Assembly: GCF_910592395.1 (NCBI RefSeq)
Contig: NC_088316.1
Span: forward strand, 19,530,001-19,594,000
Origin: Lineus longissimus
Lineage: Eukaryota > Nemertea > Pilidiophora > Heteronemertea > Lineidae
Reading direction: 5' to 3'
DNA length: 64,000 bases
Below are positions 11,901 through 14,900 of this stretch, in pieces. Position numbers and translations under genes: made by a program. The stretch's first letter is position 1, and each line of letters begins with the position of its first letter. The notes below the pieces were generated by a model. That model was not told where the DNA came from. It did not search any database and saw nothing but the letters and a program-made list of their open reading frames with translations.

Positions 11901-14900
11901 AGGGGTGCTTCTTGGTGAGAGACTCAGCGACATCCAAGGGAACATATACTCTCTCATTATACACTAAAGAAAGGTAGGTGTTCACGCTAGCCACATTTTG
12001 AACATGAATAATGTGTAGTGTTTAATTAGTTTGGTGAATTCCTGTTAAAATGGTTTGTAATTGTTCGTGAAGTTGCTCTGCTGTGATCTGGCATCGTTTG
12101 TTTGACCATACAGCATTGATGGAAGTTCATCACAGTTGGAACCAGCTCTTTGGCTTTATTTCTTGTTATTCAATCAGTCTACTATGTATTGCGCGTCAAT
12201 AGGAATCAGTTATTGTTTTCATATACCGATAATTATTTTTGATTCTATGTTAAGAAATCATGCCTTTCTTCACAACATCTTTTTAGTGCAAATCACATTG
12301 TACACTGCTTCAACAGTAACCACACCTAGATTTTAGATTGCTGTAACTTTAGACAGCGTACATATTAATATAACTAACTTTGTAAATGGATTAGTGTTTA
12401 ATATGTTAGTTGTCCTTACCTCATGGTCTCTTAGGCGCGACTCTCTCTTGGATAATTGCTTAACCTTGTGCACTAACCCCACTGTGTGTTTGCTTCATCT
12501 AGATCAGATGGTGTTATAAGGCATTATCATATCAAGAAGAACTCCGAGGGCAAATATTTTCTCGCAGAGCGTCATGCATTTGATACGATACCAGATGTCA
12601 TTCAGTACCATAAACATAACGGAGCAGGTGGGTTCCCAGTGCCATCTATTGAGAGCATGGTGAGGAAAAGCAGAATTAAGAACATACCCGTCAGTAATGT
12701 GCACCTTTCCTGCTTCTAGATGTAGCACCTATCAGTTGTCACTGAATTTGAATTAGGCCATGACCAATTCCAGGGACAAATTTTAATTCTGCTTTTTCAC
12801 CAAGTGCAAATAACGACACACATTTTCTCTCAGTCTCTTCGATGAGACTTCTTGCCTGCAACCCTATTCATAACCTAATCTGACAGTTCTATCTCTTTAT
12901 ATCCCAAACTATCCCTAAATCCTACATTTCTTATTGCTTCCTAACCCAAACCCCTCTTTGAATGTTCAGTTCAAGGTGCATTCCTAAAGGCATTCAGAAT
13001 AAAAAAATCTTGACATTTTTTCAAGAAGAACATTTTTTCTCTCATGTTACTGTCCAGAAAACCTCTTTTTTTGTCCAAAATTATCATTTTCATGCCTGGA
13101 GAATCCTCCTTGACCTTGAACTATGTGACCTTGGAATGACTTGTGACCTTGGCATGATCTTTGACTTCTACCATTCTCTCCTTATTTCAGCTCCGTCATT
13201 CATTACCACATCAAAATCAACGAGGCGGGCAACTATTTCTTTTCAGACAAACATGTCCATGCAAATGTTCCTGATTTGATCTTTTATCATAAGCATAACT
13301 CGGGAGGTAGGTGTTTCAGTGTTGTAAATGAAACTGCAGGGCTTTACCTTGAACTCTTGAAGGAAGACGCAGGCCGGTATTCTTGTTGCAAACAGCTGAT
13401 TTCCGGCACTAAATCAGCGCCTTTTTTTCTTGAAGCTTTTTTGGGTTTGATCCTTGTATTAGTACAGGAAATAAGTGTTTGTGCTGCTTTCCATTGGTTC
13501 AGTGCAATTCATATGAATGACGGGTATAAGGTATGGCCCTATATATATTGCTTCATGTTCACACTGTTCACCTTTTGTTATTTGGTTATAAACGATTAAA
13601 CGCTTTAAGTGGTGGTTATCATAACAACACTACAGTCCATGTTTGTTCGTCTTTGGGTCTAAGTTCACTTTTGTGCGAGGACGAAGTTGCTTCTTTTCTC
13701 CATGGACTCAGCTGCCCTTAGCCAAATAAGTGGTTTGTCTGAGAGCTACCCTTCATTGATACAGCGTGATGTTGTATTATTGAGGATGGCTGCTGCAGGT
13801 GAACGATTCTCGCCTGAGGACACAGACCAGGCACCAGCTGTTAAAATCATTTTGGTTCTTCCCGTGCCTGCATGTTACATTGTAATATACCACAATGTTT
13901 GTATCCCAACTATCCAAGGTGTCTCCTTCCCTGAGCCAAAATCTCATCTTTAACTTCTACTTTCAAGGTTTCGTAGCCACACTCCTATGATTTATGAAAA
14001 TCATTTTGTCAAAAGAGTTGTATGACATTTCTGATTTTTGGCCCATTTCCACTTCTTTCTCATGTGAGGGTGTGATTTGACATCAGAAATAAACAAGATC
14101 TATGCCTCATCTCTCTGCACAACTTTTCGAAATTGACCTAGTTCTATTAAAAGAAACACCATTTTAACATGGAGGAAAATTCTTTTGTACTGAGCACTGT
14201 CTCAAGATACAAATAATAGATTATGATATTTGGTAACTGTGTTGGCTGCATGCATACGTGGCTTCCTCATGATAGCATGCTGTTGTGTTTCAGGTCTTGT
14301 ACAAAGATTACGTTCACCACCGGGACAAAGCAATACTCCACTTACAGTTGGACCAGGCCATGGTACGTTGCCCCAACTCTATCTTGATCACTATTTTTGT
14401 TCATTTTTACTTTTAAGAGTATATTTTGTTTGTTACCGGGTATACTCTGATAGTGTCGTACTCTTCACGAAAGGGCCAGTCAGATTTTGTTATCATGAGG
14501 AAATCTTATGACAATCTCAGTTGCAAGTCACCTAGTTGGAAGGAAGTTGGTACCAGTATTGACCTTAGTTTGCTACAAACCATGCAGCCACATTTAACAA
14601 ACTACCAAAGATGAGACCTTGCTATCATAAGTTCTTTATTTACAATTCAGACCGATATGAGATTGATCCTAATGACATACAACTACTGGAAGAACTGGGA
14701 AGTGGACAGTTTGGGGTAGGTACAAAGCTCTGCGAATTCACTTGTTTATCCTGATAAAGATTTGTTCTTTCTCTTGTTCTGTAAATAACCTCTGTCATAG
14801 GCCTACTCAGTTCAAGGTCATCCATGTGAGGAGGCCGAGAGTGAAAACTGGCGAGAATGTGTCGATAGTTTCATGATTTCAAGATCGAGATTAAGACGAT

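Follow-up and report, generated by a model that had tools for sequence, protein, structure and literature searches.

Tandem duplicated exon substitutions, in which one copy of a duplicated exon is exchanged for the other, number 236 events in 214 human genes according to PMC9741552, and FYN (FynB/FynT) exchanges the SH2–kinase linker together with the beginning of the kinase domain by this route, as described in the same paper. The Tec-family kinase gene of the ribbon worm (nemertean) Lineus longissimus analyzed here resembles FYN in having tandem homologous exons, of which one would be chosen, within a cytoplasmic tyrosine kinase of SH3-SH2-kinase order; the difference is that FYN, a Src-family member, swaps the linker and the kinase start, whereas the Lineus gene would swap the half of the SH2 domain assigned to ligand specificity. 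With the human events in general it shares a duplicated exon and the exchange of a homologous region inside a folded domain. In the main text of PMC9741552, 'SH2' occurs once, within the FYN passage, and no Tec-family case and no exon swap of an SH2 half was found by title and opening of the abstract in searches of the open-access literature. As a kind of splicing, exon substitution has been described before; what differs here is that the specificity half of an SH2 domain is concerned, in a Tec-family kinase. The Grb2 splice form Grb3-3 is alike in that splicing alters an SH2 domain; Grb3-3, however, loses part of the domain, whereas the Lineus kinase would exchange one complete version for another. 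Gene duplication and gradual change of the loops are the usual account of how SH2 specificity changes. Were the ligand-choosing half exchanged by splicing, one kinase could be wired differently from tissue to tissue with no additional genes.

The Lineus locus is probably a mutually exclusive exon pair (exons A and B) that retunes the ligand choice of the SH2 domain, with different predicted preferences for the residues following the phosphotyrosine. This reading draws on the reading frames and stop codons, on a homology between A and B far above that of shuffled sequences, and on a public protein that corresponds to the B isoform, together with the retention of the SH2 core in both halves and the concentration of their differences between strand E and helix B. 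Exon A or exon B would be spliced in one at a time, yielding two kinases from one gene; both would share the phosphate-binding pocket, with a predicted difference in the residues favoured behind the phosphotyrosine, the choice being altered through the EF loop, the length of the CD loop, and the beginning of the BG loop. The mRNAs containing both exons or neither would be lost through nonsense-mediated decay.

The Tec-family gene and its duplicated exon

Within the window, that is, the whole stretch of 64,000 nucleotides that was analyzed, a gene model rebuilt from splice signals contains 18 constant coding exons and, in addition, either A or B, with GT-AG at all introns (Table 1). The encoded domains, PH-BTK-SH3-SH2-kinase, scored above the Pfam cutoff for both isoforms, and their order (PH domain, BTK motif, SH3, SH2, and tyrosine kinase) is that of the Tec family; the domain order and the SH2 core are also the same as in the invertebrate Tec/Btk29A proteins. 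Moreover, the SH2 domain was nearest to Tec-family SH2 domains, the ten best PDB sequence matches being TXK, BTK, ITK, or BMX for A and B alike.

Table 1. Coordinates of the Tec-family gene, its alternative exons, and other features of the window
Feature	Position	Strand	Remarks
Tec-family tyrosine kinase gene, coding span	5984..17087	+	gene model, Pfam, public protein identity
Constant exon 10, first SH2 half with FLVRDS	11839..11973	+	ends in phase 2
Exon A, SH2 second half version A	12503..12627	+	125 nt, phase 2 in, 1 out
A–B intron	12628..13190	+	563 nt
Exon B, SH2 second half version B	13191..13306	+	116 nt, phase 2 in, 1 out; present in public protein
TGA reached in frame with A + B	13277..13279	+	gene model
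Constant exon 12, SH2 end (GLVQRL) and start of SH2–kinase linker	14294..14362	+	gene model
MED7 (Mediator subunit)	3215-3751	-	Pfam Med7
Ionotropic glutamate receptor-like channel stretches (two)	24983-25807, 42402-42959	-	Pfam Lig_chan
tRNA genes, Thr(AGT) and two Met(CAT)	26562-26635, 48569-48643, 49717-49788	+	
39-bp minisatellite	46245-47000		19.4 copies, 93% match
734-aa open frame with SAM domain	54785-56989	+	

The two exons are adjacent, homologous, and of equal phase. Each of them alone gives an open protein, of 643 aa with A and 640 aa with B, and both frames are terminated by TAG at 17085-17087. Double inclusion and double skipping are non-productive: with A and B together the first stop is the TGA inside exon B, and with neither the first stop begins at 14361 and extends into exon 13. 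The first-pass annotation had proposed these exon boundaries and phases, the in-frame TGA on double inclusion, and a frame shift on double skipping, and had placed the FLVRDS motif, which includes the phosphate-binding Arg, in the constant upstream exon and hence in both isoforms; the gene model bore it out on all these points.

A tblastn search of the window with exon A matched exon B at an E value of 1.35e-12 (19/36 residues identical, 52.8%), and the A/B alignment score of 121 compares with a maximum of 55 in 20,000 shuffles. The earlier description of homologous alternatives with 19/40 identities refers to the same 19 residues over a longer span, 36 being the length of the gap-free part. 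Apart from B, the best match of the search had an E value of 0.22, and therefore no third copy of the exon was seen within the 64-kb window. At the DNA level the 36-codon block is 62% identical, and the 200 nt adjoining A and B on each side do not align better than 200 shuffles. An assembly repeat or haplotype artefact was rejected because of these unalignable flanks and the limited identity of the block.

The B isoform is already in public databases as a predicted protein: 'tyrosine-protein kinase Tec-like isoform X2 [Lineus longissimus]' (P0001; 640 aa) is identical to it letter for letter and gives separate support to a product containing B and not A. A designation as 'isoform X2' points to the existence of an X1, which is presumably the form with exon A. 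Alternative models of NCBI usually rest on RNA-seq.

Distribution and age of the exon pair

When the exon-B region was compared with 5.8 billion proteins, the one match was the Lineus Tec-like isoform X2, in a database clustered at 90% identity, where the X2 cluster has 3 members and the clustering hides X1. In a comparison of Tec proteins, the best 120 of 453 matches were scored against half A and half B. Among these, half B fitted clearly better than half A in the Lineus protein only (by 113 points), a respect in which it differs from the invertebrate Tec/Btk29A proteins compared; the next protein favoured B by 10 points, and eight others in all did so by 1 to 10. Thus, no clear B-like half beyond Lineus was present among the best 120 of 453 Tec matches, where hidden isoforms or unannotated exons are possible. 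Nor was one found in other species by insensitive searches with B, which had 1 and 19 candidates (the latter with 9 matches).

The residues of the swapped half were aligned for P0001 and 40 other Tec proteins, picked from 128, giving 37 gap-free columns from HYHI to GL. A and B share 20/37 residues, and A shares 20–26/37 with each of eight named proteins from annelids and molluscs. As A is no more similar to B than to these proteins, the duplication is either about as old as the phyla concerned or B has changed fast. In a free FastTree tree (37 columns, 42 sequences; too few columns to settle the age), A came out next to bivalve proteins, and B, on a long branch, next to two chelicerates and another protein. 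Forcing A and B to be sisters cost 15 log units with an AU p of 0.057, which is marginal and does not reject the sisterhood. We regard it as conceivable, though rather doubtful, that the splice-exchanged specificity half with its constant phosphate pocket makes the Tec kinase a regulated reader of phosphotyrosine with two states, and that the exon pair predates the nemertean–mollusc split, other lineages having kept one copy each; such an age would follow from A and B being as different as A is from the bivalve proteins.

Two further observations were made on the proteins compared. Two bird predictions (P0002 and P0003) had scores far above what their identity suggests, and we guess that in each two Tec-type SH3-SH2 regions were fused into one model. 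Flatworm proteins (P0121, P0123, P0124, P0127, and P0128) and look-alikes of them (P0125 and P0126) carry a long Gly/Asn/Ser-rich insertion in the SH2 domain between strands D and E; several flatworm-type Tec fragments start just before the second SH2 half, a hint that an intron may interrupt the CD loop at a comparable position.

Predicted effect of the exchange on the SH2 domain

The reviews PMC9783222 and PMC7530234 assign the phosphate site to helix A, the BC loop, and strands B to D, and ligand specificity to a pocket made by helix B together with the EF and BG loops, to which strand D contributes; according to one of these reviews the C-terminal half varies more, and position bD5 is given as crucial for the +3 preference in PMC9783222. 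Structural modelling, which the first-pass annotation had suggested as a check, was done by AlphaFold2 on the B isoform only, with 41 sequences (mean pLDDT, 82.9; pTM, 0.49), and gave a confident SH2 fold with exon B in place, the mean pLDDT of successive blocks being 94 (residues 311–320), 90 (321–330), 92 (331–340), and 74 (341–350). Strand D was assigned to residues 309–317, two short strands to 323–324 and 330–331, and helix B to 334–343, which indicates that the swapped exon runs from strand D through strand E, the EF loop, strand F, and helix B into the first part of the BG loop. FLVRDS in exon 10 and the Pfam matches in both versions, and the model in version B, indicate an intact SH2 domain with its FLVR arginine. 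The 50 matches listed in a fold search with the whole B-isoform model were kinase domains, and thus the search did not probe the SH2 part.

The differences between A and B are unevenly placed within this half. None of the 5 residues of the strand D motif HYHIK differs, and 2/10 do in helix B (335–344), in contrast to 8/9 in residues 325–333, from strand E to helix B. This last stretch was chosen after the A/B differences had been seen. For comparison, 39 other Tec proteins gave 304 pairs whose overall divergence resembles that of A and B (15–19 of 37); in these pairs, which are non-independent because the proteins are related, the stretch contained at most 7/9 differences. A 10-column window with 9 differences occurs somewhere in 24/304 pairs, so that only its place is unusual in A/B. 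Furthermore, 8/9 differences in 325–333 were also reached by B against 2/40 other Tec proteins and by A against 0/40, and part of the effect may therefore reflect a faster change of B. The CD loop, between S302 and H312, differs in length as well, with 12 residues in A and 9 in B compared with 11 in 34/41 aligned proteins.

The earlier proposal that the swapped half is the part setting ligand choice agrees, as far as sequence comparison can tell, with the peak of divergence between strand E and helix B and with the identity of HYHIK. The parts that hold the phosphotyrosine would be kept and those that read the following residues would be changed, strand D excepted. We infer that the A and B isoforms would differ in their preferred residues after the phosphotyrosine. 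The two versions, whose first half and context are common and whose differences fall chiefly in the CD loop and in the stretch from strand E to helix B, would constitute a natural paired experiment for finding the loops that set the ligand.

Strand D tells against the specificity reading. Its Tyr, which we take to be position bD5, is identical in A and B, and with the strand D residues unchanged the specificities of the two isoforms could be similar. The SH2 domain of Tec kinases also contacts the kinase part. It is unlikely, on balance, that the exons are mutually exclusive and their swap mainly alters regulation rather than the phosphopeptides bound, whether through stability, through SH2 contacts with the linker or the kinase domain, or through contacts that depend on the CD loop. 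The shared HYHIK motif, the unequal CD loops of A and B, and the contact with the kinase part would all fit such a regulatory role; against it, the strongest divergence between A and B lies on the ligand side, in the stretch from strand E to helix B.

Splice choice, coding state of exon B, and other features of the window

The stop reached with both exons is 27 nt short of the end of exon B; 8 exon junctions follow it, the last of them 833 nt away. A premature stop far upstream of the last junction is expected to elicit nonsense-mediated decay, and this fate is therefore expected for the A + B mRNA. It had been claimed that exclusivity is enforced by the reading frame; the part of this claim that holds is that the wrong products are non-productive, but as a whole it is too strong, because the splice choice needs another mechanism. 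Nonsense-mediated decay would remove splicing errors but would not choose between A and B.

Known mechanisms are steric exclusion, competing RNA pairing, and spliceosome incompatibility. Both exons are flanked by GT-AG sites, and 563 nt is long for simple steric exclusion. Inverted repeats listed in 11974-14293 include 13510-13527, for which two partners are conceivable, 12684-12701 and the beginning of exon B. This resembles a docking arrangement, but the docking pairs scored only 28.8 and 27.8, below the mean shuffle maximum of 32.4. The best stem, inside the A–B intron, scored 37.6 (shuffle mean, 32.4; 95% quantile, 38.0), and accordingly the ungapped stem scan with 150 dinucleotide shuffles revealed no intron pairing above the 95% shuffle level. 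TGCATG, an RBFOX-type motif, was not enriched in the window (54 occurrences versus 49.4 expected).

Exon B has the marks of a coding exon. Sixteen columns are conserved in at least 90% of the 40 other Tec proteins, and A and B each keep 14/16 of them, A missing two and B two different ones; Pfam SH2 scores were 78.3 bits for A and 69.4 bits for B (cutoff, 21), with the full profile covered in both. Over 36 codons, the A/B differences at codon positions 1, 2, and 3 number 9, 11, and 21, a third-position excess (p 0.014) that is expected if the protein was under selection. On the other hand, 14% of 114-nt windows in the introns of the Tec gene (985/6909) are open by chance, so that the open frame alone is weak evidence for the exon. 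B has 5/37 residues unseen in the 40 relatives versus 1/37 for A, which makes it the more derived copy. Judged by its conserved columns, exon B is not decayed.

The same features bear on whether exon B makes a functional protein at all. If it were a poison exon, it would join A, bring in the TGA, and lower the output of the kinase, the B-only protein being little used; the distance of that stop from the last junction suits this function, yet B retains most of the conserved SH2 residues, the third-position excess would be needless for an exon read out of frame, and the public X2 model contains B without A, making the poison-exon explanation highly improbable. That B is a decaying relic of the exon duplication, still spliced at a low level, is scarcely credible: its derived residues and the frequency of chance-open windows would allow it, but the conserved core is intact, the splice sites are canonical, synonymous sites are heavily changed with the protein core kept, and B has likely long been open, since A and B are about as diverged as A and the annelid and mollusc proteins.

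Other features of the window are included in Table 1. MED7 lies head to head with the Tec gene, and from our own reading of the sequence its first exon is likely near 4040-4160. The minisatellite contains long open frames of 263 aa (-) and 232 aa (+) built of a 13-residue repeat. Two stretches of ionotropic glutamate receptor-like channels and three tRNA genes are also present. The 734-aa open frame with a SAM domain, presumably resembling an ARAP-type protein, contains several tyrosine motifs of the YDVP/YEPI type, which could be putative SH2 ligands.
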